Shown here piece after piece: positions 39,048 to 63,054 of a DNA stretch of 64,000 bases (positions are counted from its first letter, which is position 1; every line of letters starts with the position of its first letter). The translations under genes and the position numbers were made by a program. The DNA is from Ruminococcus flavefaciens (lineage in GTDB: Bacteria; Bacillota; Clostridia; Oscillospirales; Ruminococcaceae), in NCBI GenBank assembly GCA_902777125.1, contig CACYSQ010000006.1, forward strand, positions 142,129 to 206,128. The letters are read 5' to 3'. The notes beneath the pieces were generated by a model. The model saw only the letters and a list, made by a program, of their open reading frames with translations. It made no database searches and was not told the DNA's origin.

Positions 39048-39305
39048 AGGGGCGGCGTTACACCGGACAAGCTCCGCTTCAAGGAGCTGCTTGCGAGGAT
39101 ATCCGAGGGCGGTGTGGAGGAGGTCATAATGGCTACCAATCCCACTGTCGAGGGTGATGCTACCGCGATGTATGCGGCAGGGCTCCTCAAGCCGCTCGGT
39201 GTCAAGGTGACGAGGCTCGCCTTTGGCCTGCCGGTCGGAGGAATTCTCGAATATGCCGATGAGGTGACGCTCTATAAGGCTCTCGAAAACAGAAACGATA
39301 TGTGA
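39048..39305 (+). pseudogene. Duplicated 3' fragment of recR
   Basis: The DNA from about 39048 encodes the last ~83 residues of RecR (from [16 protein letters not shown] to ENRNDM) nearly identically to the intact gene at 4123-4725, on the opposite strand. At DNA level there are many synonymous differences, and the stop is TGA rather than TAA. The zinc finger and the start of Toprim are missing, so it cannot make RecR. It begins within ~10 bp of the preceding stop codon and has its own terminator. Confidence 0.88.
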
Positions 39306-39333
39306 AAAAGCTGTCCGTAAGGACGGCTTTTTT
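39305..39333 (+). terminator. Terminator after the recR fragment
   Basis: A stem of 8 bp (AGCTGTCC/GGACGGCT, one G-U) with a GTAA loop and T6. Confidence 0.82.
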
Positions 39334-39342
39334 GTGTCGGTA

Positions 39343-39371
39343 TTGACAAATTTTCCGGAAAGAGCTATAAT
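39343..39371 (+). promoter_or_regulatory. Consensus promoter of leader RNA copy A
   Basis: TTGACA - 17 bp - TATAAT. The RNA should start at about 39378, at the first base of the P1 stem. Confidence 0.92.
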
Positions 39372-39376
39372 AAAAT

Positions 39377-39513
39377 TGCGACGCAACTTAATATTTATCC
39401 GATAACAGGTGTACACTTTTTTCGTATGCCTGTTTATTGGAAAACGAAGTTGTGTCGTAGCAATTGGAGTTATGCATTTTTCGGTGCGTAGCTTTGGCTG
39501 CGCACTTTTTTTT
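39377..39513 (+). ncRNA. Structured leader RNA, copy A (riboswitch-like)
   Basis: P1 pairs 39377-39389 with 39447-39459. A conserved asymmetric internal loop follows (AAUAUUU on the 5' side, AAACGA on the 3' side). P2 pairs about 39399-39414 with 39424-39440 and is capped by the loop ACUUUUUUC before GUAUG. The 3' part can form an antiterminator (39468-39476 with 39485-39493) or, exclusively, the terminator (39484-39492 with 39497-39505, then U8). The gene starts 18 nt later. Copy B at 57218 shares promoter, structure and loops. I do not recognise a known riboswitch class. Confidence 0.8.
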
Positions 39514-39530
39514 GTGGAGGAGGTGAAAAA

Positions 39531-39917
39531 ATGATATTTGTAAGTCATGAGAAATATCCCTATTCTCCTATGGCAACACTTCTCTCTCAGCTCAATCTCA
39601 TTGCTGTTGCGATACTCTTTATAGCAACATTTGTTTCAGGAATTATGGTGATATCGCATTTTTCGGTAAAGGTTCTGGTGATCTTCCTTGTAATTCTTGC
39701 AATTACTCTTGCCGACGTATTTGTCTATAACGATAAGATCCTTCCGAAACTCGCTGCAAGGGAAATGGAAAAGTGCCTGAGAAAAAAGCAGAACATCGCC
39801 CTGAAATACTGCCAGAACCATCCGGAGGAATTCAACAGGATAATCGGGATAAATCCAAATTTCGCAAGCAGATACGAAATGGACGGAAACGGAAATATCG
39901 TTAAAAAAAATAAGTAA
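39531..39917 (+). CDS. Small membrane protein behind leader RNA A
   Basis: 128 aa with two hydrophobic helices (LNLIAVAILFIATFVSGIMV and VLVIFLVILAITLADVFVY) and a charged cytoplasmic tail of ~60 residues rich in Lys, Asn and Glu. GGAGGAGGTG precedes the ATG. No family recognised. It lies 13 bp before a lipoprotein gene; both are expressed from the leader-controlled promoter. Confidence 0.78.
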   Translation: MIFVSHEKYPYSPMATLLSQLNLIAVAILFIATFVSGIMVISHFSVKVLVIFLVILAITLADVFVYNDKILPKLAAREMEKCLRKKQNIALKYCQNHPEEFNRIIGINPNFASRYEMDGNGNIVKKNK

Positions 39918-39930
39918 AGGTGGAATCAAC

Positions 39931-40623
39931 ATGAAAAAATCATTGGCATTAGCCTTGTCAGCCGCGATTCTCTGCGGCAGTATGGCAGGCTGTGCAGACA
40001 GCTCTGACAGTTCTTCATCTGCTCCAGTCACAACTGCCGCACCCACTACAACTGAGACAACGACAGCAGAACCAACTACTGCTGAACCGACTACGGAGCC
40101 GCTGGTCGCAAAGACACCTCCTACGGGCGTTGTTCACGTCATTGATGATGATAACTGCAATGTTATGGATTTCAAGCCCGGCGATACGGTCTCAGGAAAA
40201 GTGAACAGAGGCTATGGTGCCTTTGCTTACATCGCAGATTTTTATGGTGATATTCCTATGGGTGTTCGTATAAGCGATGAACAAGGGAATGAAGTGGAAA
40301 GTCATGAATTAAACTTCTGTCCCATAAGGATAGGTAACTGCTTTGTTGTTTACGGTAATATAGATCCATTAAAAGTTGAAGTTAATGAAAATGGCTGGGA
40401 AACATACAATAAGAAAGAAGCCGAAGGTCTCAGCGAAGAGGAGCTTGAGCAGTACCGACCGAAGCCTTTTGATGTTGAAGGCAGGATAGAACCGATGCCT
40501 GAAGATGTTGAGGGCTGGTTCAAGGAATGGTTCTTAAATCATTTTTCTGATGCCACTGAGGAAAATTACACCGAATACTGCCAGAATACAGTCTGCATCA
40601 TTGATAAAAATTATGATTCGTAA
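39931..40623 (+). CDS. Putative lipoprotein
   Basis: 230 aa. Lipoprotein signal MKKSLALALSAAILCGSMAG then Cys, followed by a Thr/Glu-rich spacer. The mature part (~170 residues) starts after PTEPLVAKTPPTGVVHVIDDD and appears beta-rich with a C-terminal acidic region. Similar in layout, not in obvious sequence, to the lipoprotein at 57397, which is governed by the same kind of leader RNA. Function unknown; it acts outside the membrane. Confidence 0.8.
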   Translation: MKKSLALALSAAILCGSMAGCADSSDSSSSAPVTTAAPTTTETTTAEPTTAEPTTEPLVAKTPPTGVVHVIDDDNCNVMDFKPGDTVSGKVNRGYGAFAYIADFYGDIPMGVRISDEQGNEVESHELNFCPIRIGNCFVVYGNIDPLKVEVNENGWETYNKKEAEGLSEEELEQYRPKPFDVEGRIEPMPEDVEGWFKEWFLNHFSDATEENYTEYCQNTVCIIDKNYDS

Positions 40624-41122: not shown

Positions 41123-42682
41123 TTAAATTTCCGGCAAGCCGGGAATTTCCGGTTGATCTTCCCTGACCGTCTTACGCGCCTGCATATAGTCCGGGAGCTC
41201 GATAGCGTCGATCTCGTCGTTATAGGTGGAACGCTTTTTGGGAAGGGCTTCTACTGCTTTGACATCGCCCGACATAAGGGCTTCGCGGCGTTCAGGGACA
41301 TAGGCTTCGAGCTCGCTTGCATCAGCCTCACCGGCTGCGCCCATAGTGACTCTTGACCTGATAGGTTCATAGGCATTGAGCCTGCTTACGTCAACTTCTC
41401 TTGTCGGTCTCATGATGTCGCGGGTGTGGGTCTCTTCTTTTGCAGCGAGGTCGTCAGCGTTGACGGCCGCGGTCTGCTTCATGTAGAGCTTGTTGTATTT
41501 TGCGGCGGTATTGGGGTTGAGCTTTTCGGCATCAACAATGGGGGTATCGCCCATATAATCCACGCGCTTCTTCTCAAATTTCTTCAGTCTGCCGAAATCA
41601 CCGTTATCCTGCGAAGCACCGCCCATATCATTGCTGTGCTTGCCGAAGAAGTCGTCCATAGCATCGGGAGCGTGCTTGGTAGACTTTCCGCCGTCGAAGA
41701 ACTCCCAGAAATCATCGGGGACGTCAACGCGGCTTTCCTCCTGCTTGGGAGGCTTTGGCTGCTGCGGCTGCGGGGTACCGTAAACTGGCATACCGCCGGC
41801 CATTTGCGGGGGCATACCGCCGAACATCATCGGCTGCGGGAAGGGCTGCTGTACAGGCTCGCCGTTCTCGTTTTTCATTTGCGGCTGTGCATACATCATC
41901 GGCTGAGGCTGACCGTAAACGGGCATACCGTTCTGATCGTAGCCGATAAGCTGGGGCTGAGCGAACATCATCGGCTGAGCCTGACCGTATATCGGCATAC
42001 CGTTCTGATCGTAGCCGATGAGCTGAGGCTGAGCGTACATCATCGGCTGAGGCTGACCGTAAACCGGCATACCGTTCTGATCGTAGCCGATTATCTGAGG
42101 CTGACCGTACATCATAGGCTGGGGCATACCGTTCATCTGAGGCATACCGCCCGGCTGGGGCATACCGTTCATCTGAGGCATACCGCCCGGCTGGGACATA
42201 CCGTTCATCTGAGGCATACCACCCGGCTGGGACATACCGTTCATCTGAGGCATACCGCCCGGCTGAGGCATACCGCCCATCTGAGGCATACCGCCCATCT
42301 GTGGCATACCGCCCATCTGTGGCATACCGCCCGGCTGAGGCATACCGCCCGGCTGTCTGTGGGGCAATGCGACTCGTTCTGTATCGAGCTTCGGGATAAA
42401 GGGTTCATCGAAGCTGCTGAAATCGAACTCCTCCTCATCGGCGTTGAGTTCATCGGCAGTATAGAGGTCTGACGATGAAGAAGCTGTAGGAGGTCTGTCG
42501 CTGATAGTGAATGTACCGCTGCCGAATTTGAAGCCTCCGGCATTAGGTTCTTCTTCTGTATGATAGCCGCCCATATCGACCGCTTCGTAATTGACTTCCT
42601 CAGGGTTATCCAGATTAGTACCGCAGCTGACGCAGAATTTGAGTTTCGGCGGATTTTCGTTTCCACACTTAGGACAAATCAT
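41123..42682 (-). CDS. Zinc-ribbon protein with Gly-Met-Pro-Gln repeats
   Basis: 519 aa. An N-terminal zinc ribbon (CPKCGNENPPKLKFCVSCG) is followed by an acidic region, then about a dozen tandem GGMPQ(M/P)-type repeats (residues ~108-188), three or four 22-residue QPMMYAQPQLIGYDQNGMPV repeats and a Gln/Pro-rich stretch. The C-terminal ~190 residues are charged and not recognisable. There is no membrane segment or signal. The repeats are probably disordered and may mediate assembly. Own promoter at 42783-42811. Confidence 0.82.
   Translation of the reverse strand: MICPKCGNENPPKLKFCVSCGTNLDNPEEVNYEAVDMGGYHTEEEPNAGGFKFGSGTFTISDRPPTASSSSDLYTADELNADEEEFDFSSFDEPFIPKLDTERVALPHRQPGGMPQPGGMPQMGGMPQMGGMPQMGGMPQPGGMPQMNGMSQPGGMPQMNGMSQPGGMPQMNGMPQPGGMPQMNGMPQPMMYGQPQIIGYDQNGMPVYGQPQPMMYAQPQLIGYDQNGMPIYGQAQPMMFAQPQLIGYDQNGMPVYGQPQPMMYAQPQMKNENGEPVQQPFPQPMMFGGMPPQMAGGMPVYGTPQPQQPKPPKQEESRVDVPDDFWEFFDGGKSTKHAPDAMDDFFGKHSNDMGGASQDNGDFGRLKKFEKKRVDYMGDTPIVDAEKLNPNTAAKYNKLYMKQTAAVNADDLAAKEETHTRDIMRPTREVDVSRLNAYEPIRSRVTMGAAGEADASELEAYVPERREALMSGDVKAVEALPKKRSTYNDEIDAIELPDYMQARKTVREDQPEIPGLPEI
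41885..42356 (-). repeat. Coding tandem repeats in the zinc-ribbon gene
   Basis: Two arrays: units of 12-24 bp built on CATACCGCC (GGMPQ repeats, ~42115-42356) and units of 66-69 bp (YDQNGMPV repeats, ~41885-42115). Synonymous differences between units are few, suggesting recent expansion; copy number may vary between strains. Confidence 0.85.
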
Positions 42683-55139: not shown

Positions 55140-55168
55140 TCCCCCTGTATGGACAGGGGGACTTTTTT
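55140..55168. terminator. Second terminator-like hairpin
   Basis: TCCCCCTGT pairs with ACAGGGGGA (55153-55161), then C-T7 on the plus strand. On the minus strand it lies directly after the stop of the 636-codon gene. Confidence 0.7.
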
Positions 55169-57078
55169 TACTGATACTGTGTTTCTTCAGCAGCGCTTTC
55201 CATTGCTGCCTCAACAGCCTTGACGGTCTTTTCCTTTACCTTTATGCCGCGCTTGATACGCTTGAACATGAAAGCGAGGAGAAGCTCAACGAAGCCTGTT
55301 CCGATAGCGATGATGCCGAATTTCAGGAGCACATGGAAGATAAGGTAAGCGATAACATTGCCTGTAACAGCGTAAACGATAGGTGCTGCTGCGAGTACCG
55401 CTGCGCCGATGATGAACATGAGGAATCCGCTTATACCGAATATCTTTCCGTAGAAGCCGCAAAGGTGCTTGCCTCTGCGGTCAACGATGAGAGCGATCCA
55501 GATGAGGAACACAAGGATAAGTGCGAGCACGATGCCGAGGGTTATGTAGGAGAAAGCGTAGTTTGCATTCTTTAGGTCGAAGCCGGTGTGCTTGTTCCAC
55601 TCCTTGATGGAGAGGTTCTTGTCAACATCGTTCTTAGCGAGGTTTTTCTTTATGGTCTTGAGCTCGCTCGAACCGAACTTCATATCGAGTTCCTGCTTAG
55701 CGACCTTGTTGTTATCCTTGCTGCCGAAGAAATCGTTTGCGATGTCATTTGAGCCGATAGAGGGGTCATCGCCCTTGCCGTCGATGATGTACTTTGCGTA
55801 GTTCTCAACGTTTTCGCCGATATATTCAAGGATATTGGTTCCCTTGAGGTAATCCTTGAAGTCGTCCTTTGTAGCCTCGCCGTCGGAAAGCTTTCTTATG
55901 CCGAGAGTCTTGTACATACCGTCGGAAAGCGTATCGCCGTCGAACTCAGCGCTGAGAAGAACATCCTTGTCGAGCTTCTTGATGCTCTTTTTGAGGGACT
56001 TGCCGTTTGCGCCGAACTTGAATGAAGCGCAAAGGCTCAGTGCAAAGAGACAAGCGATCGTTATGATAGAGAGGAAGGTGGCGAAGAATATTCTCACGCC
56101 GCCGATCTTTGCACGGCGCTTTTCCTCACGCGGAGGAGCAGCGTATGCAGCGGGATCTTCATAGTAGGGCGGGATATTGCCTTCACCCTGGGGCTGCTGG
56201 AAGTTCTGCGGAGGCGCATAGGGATCGAACTGCTGCGGCTGGTTATTCTGAGGATAGAGAGGCGGGATATTCATTGTATTGCTGTTGTCATCGAAGCTGC
56301 CCGCCGGAGCGTTTCCGCTGAACGGGTCAGTGTTTCCGAAAACATCGCTGCTCTGCTGGATATTATTCTCAACTGCGGCTCCGATACCGGCAGGAACAGC
56401 AGCCGCGGCTGCCTCCTCGATCGAATGCTCTTTCAGACCCGGCTGTGAGGGGACTATATCCTCGCTGAGAGGCGTTGTGTTTCCGCCGCCGTTAAAGCTG
56501 CCGTGTACAGGTTCATCTGAGAGGAGCATGGTATTCTCGCCGCCGTTGAAGCTGTCGTTGAGGGGAGCATCGTCTCCCGGCAGGAGCATTGTGTCCTCAC
56601 CGCCGTCGAAGTTCTCGTTGAGGGGAGTATCTTCTCCCGGCAGGAGCATTGTGTCCTCACCGCCGTCGAAGTTCTCGTTGAGGGAGGCGCTGTCCTCGGT
56701 CAGGAGCATGGTGTCCTCGCCGCCGTCGAAGTTCTCGTTGAGGGGAGTATCTTCTCCCGGCAGGAGCATAGTGTCCTCACCGCCGTCGAAGTTCTCGTTG
56801 AGGGGAGTGCTGTCCTCGGTCAGAAGCATAGTGTCCTCACCGCCGTCGAAGTTCTCGTTGAGGGAGGCACTGTCCTCAGTCAGGAGCATAGTGTCCTCAC
56901 CGCCGTCGAAGTTCTCGTTGAGGGAGGTACTGTCCTCGGTCAGGAGCATAGTGTCCTCACCGCCGTCGAAGTTCTCGTTGAGGGAAGCCCCCTGTATCTG
57001 GTCGTCAAGCCTTGTGCCGCAATCGGGACAGAACTTTGCCCCATCGTTCACCTGCTTTCCGCATTGTTTGCAAAACAT
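55168..57078 (-). CDS. Zinc-ribbon membrane protein with eight threonine-bearing repeats
   Basis: 636 aa. N-terminal zinc ribbon (CKQCGKQVNDGAKFCPDCG), then eight 20-residue repeats at residues 31-190 with core LNENFDGGEDTMLL, the last one degenerate; each has one Thr (43, 63, ... 183) followed by Met-Leu-Leu. A Gln/Pro linker follows, one membrane helix (FFATFLSIITIACLFALSL), a ~150-residue polar extracytoplasmic region, and four C-terminal helices. The repeats look like an array of FHA-type phosphothreonine targets (see findings). GGAGG precedes the ATG; the promoter is at 57119-57147. No family for the membrane part is recognised. Confidence 0.85.
   Translation of the reverse strand: MFCKQCGKQVNDGAKFCPDCGTRLDDQIQGASLNENFDGGEDTMLLTEDSTSLNENFDGGEDTMLLTEDSASLNENFDGGEDTMLLTEDSTPLNENFDGGEDTMLLPGEDTPLNENFDGGEDTMLLTEDSASLNENFDGGEDTMLLPGEDTPLNENFDGGEDTMLLPGDDAPLNDSFNGGENTMLLSDEPVHGSFNGGGNTTPLSEDIVPSQPGLKEHSIEEAAAAAVPAGIGAAVENNIQQSSDVFGNTDPFSGNAPAGSFDDNSNTMNIPPLYPQNNQPQQFDPYAPPQNFQQPQGEGNIPPYYEDPAAYAAPPREEKRRAKIGGVRIFFATFLSIITIACLFALSLCASFKFGANGKSLKKSIKKLDKDVLLSAEFDGDTLSDGMYKTLGIRKLSDGEATKDDFKDYLKGTNILEYIGENVENYAKYIIDGKGDDPSIGSNDIANDFFGSKDNNKVAKQELDMKFGSSELKTIKKNLAKNDVDKNLSIKEWNKHTGFDLKNANYAFSYITLGIVLALILVFLIWIALIVDRRGKHLCGFYGKIFGISGFLMFIIGAAVLAAAPIVYAVTGNVIAYLIFHVLLKFGIIAIGTGFVELLLAFMFKRIKRGIKVKEKTVKAVEAAMESAAEETQYQ
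56509..56988 (-). repeat. 60-bp coding tandem repeat, eight units
   Basis: Eight in-frame 60-bp units encode residues 31-190 of the zinc-ribbon membrane protein. Seven are nearly identical at DNA level, so the array is young and likely unstable in copy number. Confidence 0.92.
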
Positions 57079-57184: not shown

Positions 57185-57213
57185 TTGACATTTTTCGATA
57201 TATACGCTATAAT
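57185..57213 (+). promoter_or_regulatory. Consensus promoter of leader RNA copy B
   Basis: TTGACA - 17 bp - TATAAT, same hexamers and spacing as for copy A. Confidence 0.92.
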
Positions 57214-57217
57214 AATA

Positions 57218-57378
57218 GCTGCGACACAACTGAATATTTTCACTGAATTAGTATATACTTTTACTTTGGTAAAAGTGCATACTCTTTTTTTCGTATGCTA
57301 ATTTAGTGAAACGAAGTTGTGCCGCAGCAATCAGAGCTATGCATTTTTCGGTGCGCAGCTCCGGCTGCGCACTTTTTT
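57218..57378 (+). ncRNA. Structured leader RNA, copy B (riboswitch-like)
   Basis: P1 pairs 57218-57231 with 57315-57328 (14 positions, one mismatch). The internal loop AAUAUUU / AAACGA is identical to copy A. P2 (57238-57251 with 57298-57311) is fully paired but of quite different sequence from copy A. An extra hairpin (ACUUUUAC/GUAAAAGU) is inserted; then GCAUAC/GUAUGC closes the loop UCUUUUUUUC. The 3' part offers the antiterminator (57335-57343 with 57352-57360) or the terminator (57351-57359 with 57364-57372, then U6). The lipoprotein gene starts 18 nt later. Confidence 0.8.
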
Positions 57379-57396: not shown

Positions 57397-58152
57397 ATGA
57401 AAAGGAATTCTATCATCGCTATGACAGCGGCGCTTTGTATCTGCGGAAGCCTCGCAGGCTGCGGAGGAAGCAGCTCAAGCTCCGGAAATACGTCCAAGTC
57501 CACCGAGGCTAAGACCGCTGCGGCTTCTTCAGAGGCTGAAAGCACCTCCCCTGCTGAGGCGAGCACAGAGCCCGAGAGTGAGGCTGCCGAAAGTACATCT
57601 ATGCCTACAGAGCTGACCGATAATATAATGGATTATCGCTTTTCTATCGGCGGAAATATCGTTGGACTGCCTGCGACATTTAAAGATTTAAAAGATGCAG
57701 GTTGGGAAATAAAGGGAGATAAATCTGCTATTACAAATAATTATGGTTATTACTTTGATCTGAAAAAAGATGATTGCATGATTACGGTATGGCTTCAAAA
57801 CGACACAGATGAAAAAGCTGATCTTAAAACCGATGAAGGAGCAGCTATTGTAAAGGTTTCAAGTGTAATGGCTACGACAATGTGGAATAAATCTAATATC
57901 GAGATCCCAAAAAACATTGTTGCAGGCGTAGCCACTCCGGAAGACGTTGCAAATGCGTATGGTCAGCCGACAGAGATTATTAATAATACCGAACAAGGTT
58001 CAATAACCTATTACTACTATGAAGGCGAAAAGGTGGAAGATCACAAAAACTTAGATAGATTTATTGCGGTACTCTTTACAAGAAAAGACAAAGATGATAA
58101 TAATTCTCCGGTAGTTATGGAAAGAATATCCATGCAGTGGGAGAATTATTAA
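57397..58152 (+). CDS. Putative lipoprotein behind leader RNA B
   Basis: 251 aa from the ATG at 57397 (GGAGG upstream; a longer frame from 57319 runs through the leader RNA). Lipoprotein signal MKRNSIIAMTAALCICGSLAG then Cys, a ~50-residue Ser/Glu/Ala spacer, and a mature domain of ~170 residues with a pattern GLPATFKDLKDAGWEI and GVATPEDVANAYGQPTEI typical of small surface lipoproteins that occur in clostridia. The last two-thirds are more AT-rich than the signal region. Function unknown; expression appears controlled by the leader. Confidence 0.82.
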   Translation: MKRNSIIAMTAALCICGSLAGCGGSSSSSGNTSKSTEAKTAAASSEAESTSPAEASTEPESEAAESTSMPTELTDNIMDYRFSIGGNIVGLPATFKDLKDAGWEIKGDKSAITNNYGYYFDLKKDDCMITVWLQNDTDEKADLKTDEGAAIVKVSSVMATTMWNKSNIEIPKNIVAGVATPEDVANAYGQPTEIINNTEQGSITYYYYEGEKVEDHKNLDRFIAVLFTRKDKDDNNSPVVMERISMQWENY

Positions 58153-58510: not shown

Positions 58511-58942
58511 TCAGCTTTCTGGATGTTCTCCGCCACCTTGCCATTCGCCAGTAGTAAGCCATATTTCGTAATAGAATAACCATTCAATTGCCCAAGGAAT
58601 AACTGTATTACTTAGTAACATACTATTTGTGAATTCCTTGTATCGAAATAAGCAAATCTCTACTTTCTTTTTTGCGACATCCACACCATAATTATGCGGG
58701 AAGTTTGGATCATCCAGCTTTTTCAACGCATCTCCAAGTATATATATTCGTGGAAGGCTATTGATTGAATACTGTAATTCAATATTATACTTCCTCGATA
58801 AATGTGTAGGTTGAACCTGAGATTTCCATATCAATTTGTTATTAATTATTTTACACTTGCTATTTGCAAATGTTTGACACAGAGCTGCTTTCTGTTGTGC
58901 TAAAGACAGCCGTTTGGCTTTAAAAAAGCTCTTATATACCAA
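58511..58942 (-). CDS. cap2: CBASS E2-like protein (type II-short)
   Basis: 143 aa, TTG start at 58942 with AAAGGGG ~10 nt upstream, overlapping the CD-NTase gene by 11 bp. The C-terminal half (YGVDVAKKKVEICLFRYKEF, then VIPWAIEWLFYYEIWLTTGEW and GGGEHP) matches the bacterial E2 proteins of type II-short CBASS, with C97 the likely catalytic cysteine. Known members form a thioester with and conjugate the C-terminus of the CD-NTase to prime it. No E1-like or JAB partner is encoded, as expected for the short type. Family assignment rests on these motifs and on context. Confidence 0.82.
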   Translation of the reverse strand: MVYKSFFKAKRLSLAQQKAALCQTFANSKCKIINNKLIWKSQVQPTHLSRKYNIELQYSINSLPRIYILGDALKKLDDPNFPHNYGVDVAKKKVEICLFRYKEFTNSMLLSNTVIPWAIEWLFYYEIWLTTGEWQGGGEHPES

Positions 58943-60077
58943 AGAAAGTATGCCCCTTTACCTTAAGTAATGAAGATGCAGCGGTAGTGTTAACAAGCCC
59001 GTTTTTACCTCCGTCAACATAAAGTCTGTTATTTTCGCGAGCTGTTCGCATTTCTTCTCCGTATTTATTCAGCGCTCTGTTTATCGGCTTTTCTCCCAAA
59101 CACTGTTTGAGAGCCTCTCCTATTTCGTCAATGCCAGAAAGTTTAAGAGGAGACTCGAGAATATCCTTCTTTACGGTAGTCAGCCAGCGGAAGAAATTAT
59201 CTGCCTTTTGAGGTTTTTCGTTCCATTTATCTGCAAAATTTTCTTCCTGCATTACAGGATTCGATATTTTGTATTCTCCGTTATTGTATTCAATATGATT
59301 TTGCATATTATCAAGTATTGACATAAGTGCATCATATATATTTGATTCGCCTTTATATGAATAAGCGGCTAAGGTTGTTATTATTATTGATATTGGTGCA
59401 TCATCAGAATTGCCAAGGAACATGATATCACGATGTCGCTTCAATAACTGTATTGCTTTTTGAAGCGTAGTCCTCCTCTTATATGTCGGCACTTTTTCAA
59501 TTTTTGTTGTACGCTCTGAAAAAACACCGCTTTTGTTAATAGGGTGATCATTTGTCATTCTGTCAACAAACCAATCATGATAAGCTTCTGGATCGCTGTA
59601 TTTATTGATATATTCGCCATTTTCAAGCTTGTGAGTTAACCGAATTGATGTAGAACCAAAAGGTTGAGCTTTTGTATATTGTGGTGAACTTGGCAATATA
59701 TCCATATGAAAGCCGTCATAACTCATTGTCCAGCAGCGTTTTCCCTCTTTTTCAAGTTTCTGTTTATAGATTTCATGCTCCTTTAAGCGATTGCCTACAA
59801 GTCCTTTTAGTGATTTAGGGAGAAGGTTCTGACCGCCTTCTAACAAGCATACCAAATCCATATCATAGTCATCATCCTCGTCAATAGGACGTACAACTGT
59901 TCCCAAATTCATAGAGCCTTGTGGCTTTATGATTACTTTATAATCAATGCCTTCTCCTAACCATTTTCCTACAGCTTCGTAGCTGCTAACAGCCTTATCC
60001 ATCATAGTTGGCGTAATATTAAGCTCATCAGCAATATACTCTAAAATTTTACTTAATTCTTGCTCTTTACATTCCAT
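58932..60077 (-). CDS. CBASS cyclic oligonucleotide synthase (CD-NTase)
   Basis: A cGAS/DncV-like nucleotidyltransferase of 381 aa that makes a cyclic nucleotide alarm signal on phage infection. GS motif at 54-55 (QGSMNLGT), metal-binding D72 and D74 (DYDMDL) and third carboxylate D126 (FHMDIL). The C-terminus ends in GHTFFGI, exposed residues of the sort that E2-like Cap2 proteins conjugate. Start overlaps the stop of the effector gene by 1 bp (TAATG). The clade and nucleotide product cannot be read with certainty. Confidence 0.94.
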   Translation of the reverse strand: MECKEQELSKILEYIADELNITPTMMDKAVSSYEAVGKWLGEGIDYKVIIKPQGSMNLGTVVRPIDEDDDYDMDLVCLLEGGQNLLPKSLKGLVGNRLKEHEIYKQKLEKEGKRCWTMSYDGFHMDILPSSPQYTKAQPFGSTSIRLTHKLENGEYINKYSDPEAYHDWFVDRMTNDHPINKSGVFSERTTKIEKVPTYKRRTTLQKAIQLLKRHRDIMFLGNSDDAPISIIITTLAAYSYKGESNIYDALMSILDNMQNHIEYNNGEYKISNPVMQEENFADKWNEKPQKADNFFRWLTTVKKDILESPLKLSGIDEIGEALKQCLGEKPINRALNKYGEEMRTARENNRLYVDGGKNGLVNTTAASSLLKVKGHTFFGI

Positions 60078-61225
60078 TAGTCCGCACCTCCTATAGTAAG
60101 TGTCTCAGAAAAGCCATTATTATCATCATAAACACGCAGTCGAGGATAGATACCTGGCATATATCTATGACCTATTTCAAATGCAGCTGATACAGGTATT
60201 GCCGGAAATACGGATACTTCAGTAGCACTTTCTGTATTTTTTATTTCATCACAGACAGATTGATATATATGCCAAAAATCAGACAAATCATCGATACTGC
60301 AGATAGCATCAACACCTATTCTTTCAGCATTTATAGTATATATTACATCAGCATCAACTACATCAGTAACTCTTTGGGGATTAATATCCGCAGTTAGTGA
60401 TAAAATAAGTGCGATATTATTACCATCCCTTACGACTCTTTTATTTACGGAAAAAGAATTCGTTTTTTTGGTTTCTATCCATTTCCAAGTATCTGGCACA
60501 CGTTTCTTTTGGTAGATATCAACGTTGGTTTTGTCCATAAACAAATAGCCGAGCTTGATAATCAAAGGAATAGGTGCAAGTGGAAATACCGAAAAGATAG
60601 TGTTAGGATCAGTATTAAGTTCGTTGCCTATTTTACGTTCAAACTCTTTTACTAATTGCTTATCAAGATCAGCCCAGTACTCCGTAGTGTTATAATCAAA
60701 AGATGACTTTATTGACATTGTTATTCCACAAGTTGATGCAGGCCTTTTGTGGGGTAACAATGCTTGCGCAGCTAACTGGTTATCAATGTGAGTTATGCTT
60801 GAATTTTTTATTGGTGAGAAGAACAGTACTCTTTCTGATTTAGGAATGGATATTAAATCGCACATTTCTCGGATGCTATCTTCGTGCTTTTTCTTCATTT
60901 CTAAAAGCAATTCTTCTGGATACTTCTCAACTTGACTGTCAATCAAAGTATGATGTTTTTTACATAGAAGCATCAAGTTCTCAATTTTATCTGACAATTC
61001 ATACGATCTTTCCTTGTCTCCTCGTGGACCATTAGGGCTTGATGCGACAATATGTGCGACATTAGAATTATTCATTTCACTAAGAGTAAGTGTGTCTAGA
61101 AAAATATTTTCGGGGCAACCATCAAATTTGCATATCCCTGCGGATTTGGCGCATAACATGCGTACAGTTAGCTCAGATGGATCTTTACCCCTATTGCTTT
61201 TATTCTTTTTCTGATTTTTCGCCAT
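60077..61225 (-). CDS. cap5: CBASS effector, HNH nuclease with SAVED domain (Cap5)
   Basis: 382 aa. N-terminal HNH endonuclease: C32/C37, NVAHIVASSPNGPRGD with H58, and NLMLLCKKHHTLID with C88, H91, H92. The C-terminal ~215 residues are a SAVED sensor, with two related repeats marked by FPLAPIPLIIKLGYLF and VFPAIPVSAAFEIGHRYMP. SAVED binds the cyclic oligonucleotide, turning on nonspecific DNA cleavage and killing the infected cell. GAAAGGAT lies before the ATG. First of the three coupled CBASS genes. Confidence 0.95.
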   Translation of the reverse strand: MAKNQKKNKSNRGKDPSELTVRMLCAKSAGICKFDGCPENIFLDTLTLSEMNNSNVAHIVASSPNGPRGDKERSYELSDKIENLMLLCKKHHTLIDSQVEKYPEELLLEMKKKHEDSIREMCDLISIPKSERVLFFSPIKNSSITHIDNQLAAQALLPHKRPASTCGITMSIKSSFDYNTTEYWADLDKQLVKEFERKIGNELNTDPNTIFSVFPLAPIPLIIKLGYLFMDKTNVDIYQKKRVPDTWKWIETKKTNSFSVNKRVVRDGNNIALILSLTADINPQRVTDVVDADVIYTINAERIGVDAICSIDDLSDFWHIYQSVCDEIKNTESATEVSVFPAIPVSAAFEIGHRYMPGIYPRLRVYDDNNGFSETLTIGGAD

Positions 61226-61553: not shown

Positions 61554-61644
61554 GTGTTTTTATTACGTTTTTTTCACTTTAAAAGCATTTTGCGCTAAGA
61601 TTTTCTTGAAAGTATGAATGTATCAGAGAAATTTAAGAAAAAAC

Positions 61645-61673
61645 TTGACTTTTGCTGATGAATGGTTTATAAT
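61645..61673 (+). promoter_or_regulatory. Promoter of the AAA ATPase gene
   Basis: TTGACT - 17 bp - TATAAT. Transcription would start near 61680, leaving a leader of only ~10 nt before the ATG at 61690. Confidence 0.88.
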
Positions 61674-61689
61674 GTATTTGGTGATTATT

Positions 61690-63054
61690 ATGCTAATAAG
61701 TTTTTCAGTTAATAATTTTCTATCATTTTACGATACTCAAGAATTGAGCATGGAAGCAGGAAAATATAGAAATAATTCTAATCGACTAAAGAAATATGGT
61801 AAGCACAAATTGCTAAAGTTTCTGTCCATTTACGGAGCTAACGCTTCTGGTAAATCGAATTTAGTTACTGCACTTGGTTTTTTTCAGTCTATAGTAGTGG
61901 AATCATTTAGAACAGGGTCTTACCCATTATATTGTAGAGTTAATGAAGAAAACAAAGAAAAGACATCTTTATTTGAAGTCAAACTGCTCTTAGATGGAAA
62001 AATTTTTGTATATGGTTTTAAATCAGTTTTATCCAAAAGCATATTTACAGAAGAATGGCTTTATGAAGAATTACAAAACGGAAGCAGAAGAAGTATATTT
62101 ACAAGAGATATTCAAAACAGCGCATTTTTGCTTGGTGAATATATAACTTCGAGTAAGCACATGGAAAGACTTAAGATTTATGGCGAAGATATTAAATCTG
62201 ACGAAACGGTATTATTCTTAAAATTAATGAACCAAAATAAATCATCCTTGTATGATAAAAGTTCAAAATTAGACGTATTCAAAAGAGTTTTTTCTTGGAT
62301 TAAATATGATCTTGATGTTAATTCACCCGAAAACCCTATTACAAACTATTCTATTTTAAACGATTCGGAAAGTATCGAAGAGATTACAAAAAAACTATCT
62401 GATTTTTCAACTGGTATTGTTAAATTTGAAATTGTTCCTGTAACTGAAGATAAGATTTCTGCAAATATACCTAATGATATGATAAAAGAAATACAGCAAC
62501 GGTTACTTGATCAAAAAAATCAACATCCTGAAATACCTGATACATTTAAACCAGCTGTCTTGATTAGAATGCCTGAAAGACACAATATGTATATAATCGA
62601 ATTAAATAATGAATTGCAATTTGAATTTAAAACAATGAGTTTCAAGCATGAAAATTCAGAAGCTACTTTTGCGCTTTCAGATGAATCAGATGGTACGGTT
62701 CGCTTATTAGATATTATAGAAGTGTTATTAAAAAGTAATGAAAACAGAACATATGTGATAGATGAAATAAATCGTAAATTTCATCCATTACTTACATTGA
62801 AGTTCATTGAAGAATTTTTAATGATGGCCGAAAAAAGAAATGTTCAATTGATTGTTACAACTCACGAATCACAATTAATGGATTTAAAACTTCTCCGACG
62901 TGATGAAATTAGTTTTGTAAATAAGGATAATCAAGGATATTCATCAATTTATTCTTTAGATAGCTATGATGTTAGATTCGATAAAAAAATAGTAACAGAA
63001 TATTTAAAAGGGCACTATAATGCAGTTCCTAATTGGGTGAATAACAAAGAATAA
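61690..63054 (+). CDS. AAA ATPase of the RloA/AbiL type
   Basis: 454 aa from the ATG at 61690; the frame opens at 61618 but that start lies upstream of the promoter. LISFSVNNFLSF at the N-terminus and GANASGKSNLVTAL (Walker A, 49-56) mark an AAA ATPase of the OLD/RloA type; Walker B is YVIDEINRKFHPLLT (D358/E359), and the ending RFDKKIVTEYLKGHYNAVP is typical of RloA/AbiL proteins that act in phage defence. The usual partner rloB is absent: the next gene is convergent. Very AT-rich compared with core genes. Confidence 0.86.
   Translation: MLISFSVNNFLSFYDTQELSMEAGKYRNNSNRLKKYGKHKLLKFLSIYGANASGKSNLVTALGFFQSIVVESFRTGSYPLYCRVNEENKEKTSLFEVKLLLDGKIFVYGFKSVLSKSIFTEEWLYEELQNGSRRSIFTRDIQNSAFLLGEYITSSKHMERLKIYGEDIKSDETVLFLKLMNQNKSSLYDKSSKLDVFKRVFSWIKYDLDVNSPENPITNYSILNDSESIEEITKKLSDFSTGIVKFEIVPVTEDKISANIPNDMIKEIQQRLLDQKNQHPEIPDTFKPAVLIRMPERHNMYIIELNNELQFEFKTMSFKHENSEATFALSDESDGTVRLLDIIEVLLKSNENRTYVIDEINRKFHPLLTLKFIEEFLMMAEKRNVQLIVTTHESQLMDLKLLRRDEISFVNKDNQGYSSIYSLDSYDVRFDKKIVTEYLKGHYNAVPNWVNNKE

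Follow-up and report, generated by a model that had tools for sequence, protein, structure and literature searches.

A family of leader RNAs from Clostridia without a match in Rfam, with a putative strand relay for transcription attenuation

Sequence comparison indicates that an element preceding lipoprotein genes in Ruminococcus flavefaciens is part of a real and widespread family of leader RNAs, which has no match in Rfam and covaries in a 5' stem (P1), in a long-range pairing (PK5:a') and in the terminator. Its members are probably cis-acting transcription-attenuation leaders with a strand relay, for which no known class could be matched, and the swapping of strands appears to decide whether the downstream genes are read or shut off. 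An earlier note on the analysed stretch of 64,000 nucleotides (the window) had described two copies, A and B. What it saw holds up and extends further than first described: the PK5:a' pairing, the hairpin P3, the class-wide spread and the kind of downstream genes all go beyond the two-copy view.

In copy A, the consensus promoter that had been placed directly before the RNA was read from the sequence (Table 1). The long P1, the asymmetric internal loop (AATATTTAT opposite AAAACG) and the P2 with a U-rich loop before GTATG are likewise present. Of the two mutually exclusive 3' hairpins claimed, the shared strand (GTGCGTAGC, common to antiterminator and terminator) and the U8 terminator stand, while the antiterminator proved longer than stated: extra pairs join CGGAG-like letters before the hairpin with CUUCG-like letters of the terminator loop. 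The 142-nt RNA of copy A folds at −56.4 kcal/mol, compared to a mean of −30.3 kcal/mol (sd 3.2) for 200 dinucleotide shuffles, none of which was as stable (z = −8.15). This value and the covariation of homologues in P1 and the terminator agree with the structured leader RNA with a terminator/antiterminator switch that had been proposed. A ribosome-binding site and two genes follow 3' of the terminator, a membrane-protein gene and then a lipoprotein gene, as the note had said. The membrane protein has no Pfam match above the curated cut-off, and the lipoprotein has neither a Pfam nor an NCBIfam match above it.

Table 1 Positions in the window of the features of copies A and B and of neighbouring genes
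Feature	Position	Strand	Remarks
Copy A, whole element	39343-39513	+	
Copy A promoter	39343..39371	+	TTGACA 39343-39348, 17-nt spacer, TATAAT 39366-39371; read directly
Copy A P1 5' arm, putative transcript start	39378..39389	+	partner 39447-39458
Copy A P2 hairpin	39399..39440	+	arms 39399-39409/39429-39440; shortened loop GUGUAC-ACUUUUUUC-GUAUGC; without PK5 segment
Copy A P1 3' arm	39447..39458	+	partner 39378-39389
Copy A core	39459..39511	+	R2 match of 80.3 bits; copy A is among the 14 building sequences of R2
Copy A antiterminator hairpin	39466..39496	+	strands a' (GGAGUUAUGCAUUUUU) and c' (UGCGUAGCUUUG)
Copy A intrinsic terminator T2	39484..39513	+	GUGCGUAGC/GCUGCGCAC, then U8
First gene behind copy A	39531..39917	+	small membrane protein, 128 aa
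Second gene behind copy A	39931..40623	+	lipoprotein, 230 aa; lipobox read from sequence
Protein with a long GGMPQ-type repeat stretch	41123-42682	-	
Zinc-ribbon-like membrane protein upstream of copy B	55168-57078	-	tandem repeat around NENFDGGEDTMLL
Copy B, whole element	57185-57378	+	
Copy B promoter	57185..57213	+	TTGACA 57185-57190, 17 nt, TATAAT 57208-57213; read directly
Copy B P1 5' arm	57218..57231	+	partner 57315-57328
Copy B P2 5' arm	57238..57255	+	partner 57294-57311; inverted repeat I1
Copy B P3 5' strand	57250..57264	+	partner 57269-57283 = PK5; inverted repeat I3; family swap test
Copy B PK5 segment GGUAAAAGUGCAUACUC	57268..57284	+	distant complement of a'; inverted repeat I4
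Copy B PK5:a' pairing	57271-57281		with 57338-57348; one of eight inverted repeats (repeat finder)
Copy B P1 3' arm	57315..57328	+	partner 57218-57231
Copy B core	57326..57378	+	R2 match of 75.5 bits; among the 14 building sequences of R2
Copy B core parts		+	a' strand 57332-57348, terminator 57351-57372, U6
Gene behind copy B	57397..58152	+	lipoprotein, 251 aa; lipobox read from sequence
CBASS-like defence cluster adjoining copy B	58511-61225	-	PADLOC
CBASS-like E2-like protein	58511-58942	-	PADLOC
CBASS-like oligonucleotide cyclase	58932-60077	-	PADLOC
CBASS-like SAVED-HNH effector	60077-61225	-	PADLOC
ATPase	61618-63054	+	matches AbiLi-type defence models (PADLOC)

Copy B carries the extra hairpin P3 and the PK5 segment, both of which are absent from copy A, and a third copy (C) lies upstream of another lipoprotein gene on a different contig of the same genome. 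The PK5:a' pairing was calculated at −15.4 kcal/mol for copy B and −15.3 kcal/mol for copy C, and from their predicted structure both are canonical members of the leader-RNA family. As noted earlier, P2 differs in sequence between copies and stays paired; all three copies of the source genome have U-rich loops. The lipoprotein behind copy B has no Pfam match above the curated cut-off. Measured against these relatives, copy A is an atypical member that has lost PK5. The best pairing of its loop with the antiterminator 5' strand reaches only −6.5 kcal/mol, and it is one of 3 among 197 P1-bearing elements without the long-range pairing. Lacking PK5, copy A would represent a reduced form of the switch that probably does not respond to the signal, and the new family was thus reached via an unusual member.

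A full-length covariance model (R1) was built from four sequences, with P2 left unpaired because the first four-copy alignment had misplaced it. In the search of Ruminococcus genomes that the earlier note had suggested, R1 matched in 10 of 125 genomes at E ≤ 0.01. In two loci (L047 and L044), the long P1/P2 hairpin is missing and the promoter is followed at once by the 3' module; a second model (R2; 53 nt, 14 sequences) was therefore built on this module alone. Locus L041 differs in its 5' part, and the genes behind it are homologous to the pair that follows copy A. With R2, 14 loci in 10 genomes of the genus scored above 40 bits. At E ≤ 0.05, matches occurred in 38 of the 125 genomes, 28 of them with weaker matches only, and the 10 were kept. 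Twenty weak loci (L066-L085, ≤ 31 bits) were inspected and taken as ordinary terminators or chance matches.

Outside the genus, R2 matched in 42 of 396 genomes of a family sample (E ≤ 3e-4), 125 of 394 of an order sample (E ≤ 3e-5) and 68 of 391 of a class sample (E ≤ 1e-6); these samples overlap slightly, and their E thresholds differ. Within a phylum sample of 199 genomes, the single match at E ≤ 1e-6 was the window's own genome, with none in the other 198. Some genomes have 10-12 R2 matches, which are lower bounds because few candidates were scored per genome. By blastn at E ≤ 0.01, 20 of 60 genus genomes gave matches, chiefly short stretches of the promoter part, and the homologues besides the own genome were confined to two genomes (G043 and G009). 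Nine contigs with the exact core pattern come from gut-type metagenome genomes (Ruminococcus sp., Ruminococcaceae, Oscillospiraceae, Clostridia bacterium), seven of them from goat, sheep or deer gut according to the record, and two element-bearing contigs are from human faeces. The loci were fetched by score and by choice for diversity and are a subset of all matches; 225 model matches, minus 7 identical ones, gave 218 distinct elements.

At the gathering score, Rfam 15 yielded only tRNA and SRP RNA in the window, none of them at an element, and matched no element in 24 further loci (4 + 20, copies B and C included); T-box matches were likewise absent from the window and these loci. A lenient search of 39300-39560 gave a best E of 0.051, for an sRNA model that overlaps the terminator upstream of copy A. 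The earlier statement that no known riboswitch class matches is in line with these results. The note had named a strong Rfam match, or many homologues without covariation in P1/P2 or without the terminator overlap, as findings that would speak against its proposal; no such match turned up, and the homologues covary in P1 and the terminator. In the titles and abstract openings covered and in passages of PMC11109978 and PMC8632094, no earlier description of the RNA was recognised; one may nevertheless exist. The kind of RNA is known (an attenuator, perhaps a riboswitch), and the family, its relay and its set of surface genes appear new within the searches made.

A viral or plasmid origin was rejected: two exact-pattern scans of viral sequence were empty, and a plasmid search gave no match to copy B. 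Two records labelled 'Bacteriophage sp.' match the element (MT835845.1 and MT837627.1, the latter read only around the element). MT835845.1, an unverified entry from human faeces, has a canonical-looking element upstream of a lipoprotein gene. Its genes, which we take to be ClpB-, YicC-, Rex- and hydrogenase-like from their translations by eye, look bacterial, and the record is probably a mislabelled bacterial chromosome.

R2 contains no upstream sequence, so the upstream part provides an independent test. Of the 218 elements, 216 were long enough for the search; a P1 stem that ends at the core was found in 197 of these, compared to 42 of 648 controls with shuffled upstream sequence. Promoters could be scored for 173 of the 197 P1-bearing elements (24 were unscorable). 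The spacer between the -35 and -10 boxes is 17 nt in 158 of them, and in 142 the start of P1 lies 6 nt downstream of the -10 box. Given this usual place behind the -10 box, the RNA should start with P1. For the tree test of covariation, 217 elements were reduced by 20 with poor P1, 14 without PK anchor, 4 with a short U-run, 2 others and, last, 10 duplicates to 167 sequences. In P1, 62 compensatory branches were counted over 9 pairs, 8 of which have uncorrected p values below 0.001. P2, inside P1, is free in sequence with a longest helix of 12 bp (median), and reaches a score of at least 15 in 189 of 195 elements, compared to 271 of 975 shuffled ones. The letters of the P1/P2 junction are moderately conserved. 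Of all 218 elements, 17 lack a convincing P1, 3 have P1 but no PK5, 4 have weak PK5 pairing and 4 were left unclassed.

The segment PK5 (GGUAAAANUGCAUNCUC-like) lies in the hairpin loop of most elements and is complementary to a' (GGAGYUAUGCAUUUUU). Its anchor was found in 196 of 214 elements, including a few chance anchors such as that of copy A; the column test covers these 196 and leaves out the 18 without anchor. The elements' own PK5:a' partners pair at −15.1 kcal/mol and swapped partners at −12.5 kcal/mol (N = 214, p = 9e-28), in a swap test that, like the shuffle tests, ignores the relatedness of the elements. The controls upstream:c' (p = 0.28) and upstream:t2 (p = 0.98) showed no preference for the own partner; in the control a':t2, own and swapped partners differed by 0.1 kcal/mol (p = 0.0045). 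Of the 197 P1-bearing elements, 190 have a loop that pairs with a' at −11 kcal/mol or lower; among shuffled loops, 191 of 985 do so. The hairpin P3, formed by PK5 with the strand before it, also favours its own partner (−11.7 vs −8.3 kcal/mol, N = 180, p = 5e-27).

The paired columns of PK5 and a' covary. At k = 1, U-A occurs in 108, C-G in 34 and U-G in 28 of the 196 elements, and at k = 2, G-C in 146 and A-U in 21 of them; some slid columns are also slightly above their shuffles. In the tree test (167 sequences, p values uncorrected), compensatory branches number 6 at k = 1 (p = 0.037), 6 at k = 2 (p = 0.0004) and 2 at k = 3 (p = 0.013). The a' side does not vary at k = 0, and k = 4-6 were not significant in the same 167 sequences. 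With the partner slid by one column, pairs have at most 2 compensatory branches and none is significant; one slid control pair has 2 (p = 0.29), the same count as k = 3. A comparison of transversions among the compensations of P1 and the pseudoknot (36:25 as tallied by eye, 37:25 on recount) was made post hoc on k = 1-3 only and was set aside.

Among the predicted 3' helices, the terminator is the best supported. A terminator hairpin is present in 217 elements, the weakest at −9.9 kcal/mol, and own arms pair at −15.0 kcal/mol compared to −10.9 kcal/mol after swapping (N = 217, p = 5e-37). With columns placed by folding each hairpin and anchored at the outer end, 9 of 9 pairs covary at p < 0.05 (uncorrected); in a separate test anchored at the inner end, only 3 of 9 do so. 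An antiterminator with at least 8 a':c' pairs is predicted for 214 of 217 elements, with a median energy of −13.5 kcal/mol and a median z of −3.7 against base shuffles. Its preference for the own partner is modest but consistent (−8.35 vs −7.41 kcal/mol, N = 217, p = 1e-9). A fixed-register tree test found no compensatory excess for this helix, and a column test in fixed register no covariation; by folding, its registers shift and the helix is longer. The antiterminator letters may owe their conservation to the other strands with which they pair. The median predicted strengths are −15.5 kcal/mol for PK5:a', −15.4 for T2, −13.5 for the antiterminator and −9.3 for P3.

An open reading frame with a good start follows 167 of the 218 elements. 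Its start codon, taken as the best-scoring one within 170 nt, is at a median distance of 21 nt from the core (quartiles 19 and 44.5); part of the 51 elements without a good start lack it because the contig ends. For comparison, 126 other ORFs from the element loci were used (at least 90 aa, ATG, ribosome site). A hydrophobic N-terminus is found in 115 of the 167 downstream proteins and in 41 of the 126 others (Fisher p = 6e-10), and a lipobox in 50 and 11, respectively (Fisher p = 9e-6); these p values are optimistic, as each of several related genes was counted and the minimum length is not the same in the two sets. Pfam and PADLOC scans covered 130 of the 167 proteins. BspA-type leucine-rich repeats (LRR_5) are the commonest family (22 of 130), followed by copper-amine-oxidase-N (5), AMP-binding (3), zinc-ribbon (3) and MazE-like (3). 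The downstream set looks like one of the cell surface rather than of a pathway. Anti-phage defence was set aside as a theme, with nine PADLOC models found in 1-2 of the 130 proteins each.

A small Cys-rich protein (MIID..TGIEL.PGN..CCCDECNYL..) was repeatedly seen behind elements (L206, L253, L285, L290). Elements also occur in tandem, by two or three and mostly 192-324 nt apart, at L262, L285, L212, L213, L217, L200, L110, L154, L288, L289 and L290, several of them before one gene. The spacing is wider in L288 and L290, and L289 has four matches in tandem, two of them weak.

Taken together, the elements combine a promoter, a structured leader, an intrinsic terminator and a nearby start codon (good in 167 of 218), as is characteristic of transcription-attenuation leaders. 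The mutually exclusive antiterminator, which shares the 5' arm of the terminator, is kept in the homologues (214 of 217; no excess in the tree test). In the proposed mechanism, the transcript would begin at or beside the first base of P1, and P1 with the sequence-free P2 would make up an extended 5' hairpin with PK5 (GGUAAAANUGCAUNCUC) exposed in its loop. The strands would compete along the chain P3a-PK5-a'-c'-t2, each with the next. In the ON state, P3 would keep PK5, a' would be free to form the antiterminator and the polymerase would continue into the gene. In the OFF state, a' would be captured by PK5 in a pseudoknot that immediately follows P1; this would leave c' free, and the terminator would form and stop transcription. 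The chain would have two self-consistent states, P3 with the antiterminator or PK5:a' with the terminator. The comparison supports the family and its spread, P1, P3, PK5:a', the terminator and the position directly before genes. We infer that strands are exchanged during transcription, with the balance set by a signal that acts at the P1/P2 junction and at the pseudoknot; stabilisation of the pseudoknot would turn the gene off, a polarity that we favour by a slight margin over the reverse.

With the input specified, the proposed mechanism may be a riboswitch for a small molecule or ion, in which the P1/P2 junction, the P3 loop and the PK5:a' pseudoknot form the aptamer and the ligand favours the terminator; we hold it tentatively, at somewhat below an even chance. 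It would account for conserved letters that are unpaired or paired in one state only (CTC and a run rich in U that follow PK5, and AGCAATCGG ahead of the antiterminator), for the pseudoknot joined to the expression platform and for several to a dozen copies per genome before similar genes. However, no metabolite pathway shared by the downstream genes was seen, the junction letters are only moderately conserved, and c-di-GMP, the guess expected from the regulon, is disfavoured. In 29 chosen carriers, mostly multi-copy and all draft genomes, 11 have no GGDEF match, 8 of these at least 94% complete: G829 (8 element matches, 100% complete) and G275, G343, G863, G836, G825, G1135 and G1067 (94-98%). 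C-di-GMP was therefore rejected as a general ligand. The broad, non-metabolic gene set and the U-rich loops of the three copies in the source genome would also fit an attenuator dependent on an RNA-binding protein that shifts the P3/PK5 balance from the hairpin or these loops. Two candidate protein families were examined in the same 29 genomes, and both were rejected as general regulators: the CAT_RBD domain of BglG-type regulators was found in none of them compared to 4 of 14 control genomes, and the cold-shock domain, scarce in these RNA-bearing genomes, in 3 compared to 9 of 14. We consider a protein-dependent input rather unlikely. The tests of GGDEF, CAT_RBD and cold-shock domains disfavour general dependence, not use in a single species.

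The competing helices are of similar predicted strength, and temperature or polymerase speed might pick the relay state without any ligand; a pure relay, however, could do without the conserved letters that lie beyond the helices, and such a sensor seems improbable. Least probable of all is that the element is an independent small RNA gene, or a DNA repeat that lies before genes by chance. The own promoter and terminator, the tandem copies mostly about 200-320 nt apart and the 51 of 218 elements without a good downstream start would suit it. Against it stand the median distance of 21 nt to the start (quartiles 19 and 44.5, best-scoring start within 170 nt), the excess of hydrophobic N-termini, the empty viral scans and plasmid search (copy B) and the antiterminator, which would make no sense in a plain sRNA. 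A leader peptide was also rejected: closed ORFs of at least 8 codons of any sort occur in 167 of 197 leaders, and only 15 of 197 have one behind a Shine-Dalgarno-like 4-mer.

We regard it as an even bet that the attenuation leaders constitute a hitherto undescribed riboswitch-like class of gut Clostridia, present in as many as twelve or more copies in a genome, whose members respond to a single signal via the pseudoknot and relay-switch lipoproteins, BspA-type leucine-rich and other secreted proteins. If this is true, an unrecognised RNA switch would govern some of the proteins that common gut bacteria, many of them without cultured members, secrete or carry on their surface. It would offer a compact covarying relay for studies of attenuation, a marker for co-regulated proteins of unassigned function and a well-defined search target, namely a signal that is present also in organisms without GGDEF proteins.

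Among known systems, terminating riboswitches with pseudoknotted aptamers have a 5' leader in which antiterminator and terminator share a strand and the pseudoknot takes the antiterminator strand. The leader-RNA family is alike in leader, shared strand and predicted capture by a pseudoknot, but has no Rfam match and no common downstream pathway, and its P1 lies at the inferred 5' end. C-di-GMP riboswitches control surface-protein genes and occur in several copies per genome; multiple copies before genes of surface or secreted proteins are found here as well, whereas an Rfam match is lacking and 11 of 29 carriers are without GGDEF. In the ribonucleic antiterminators of BglG, LicT and SacY, one short protein-binding hairpin serves as the antiterminator and overlaps the intrinsic terminator. 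The present family shows the same overlap, but has a long 5' hairpin and a distant pairing, and CAT_RBD was found in 0 of 29 carriers. Leader-peptide attenuators, for example that of a uORF motif (PMC11109978), choose between antiterminator and terminator. A Shine-Dalgarno-led uORF is present in only 15 of 197 elements of the leader-RNA family, and the choice between antiterminator and terminator is the feature that both share.
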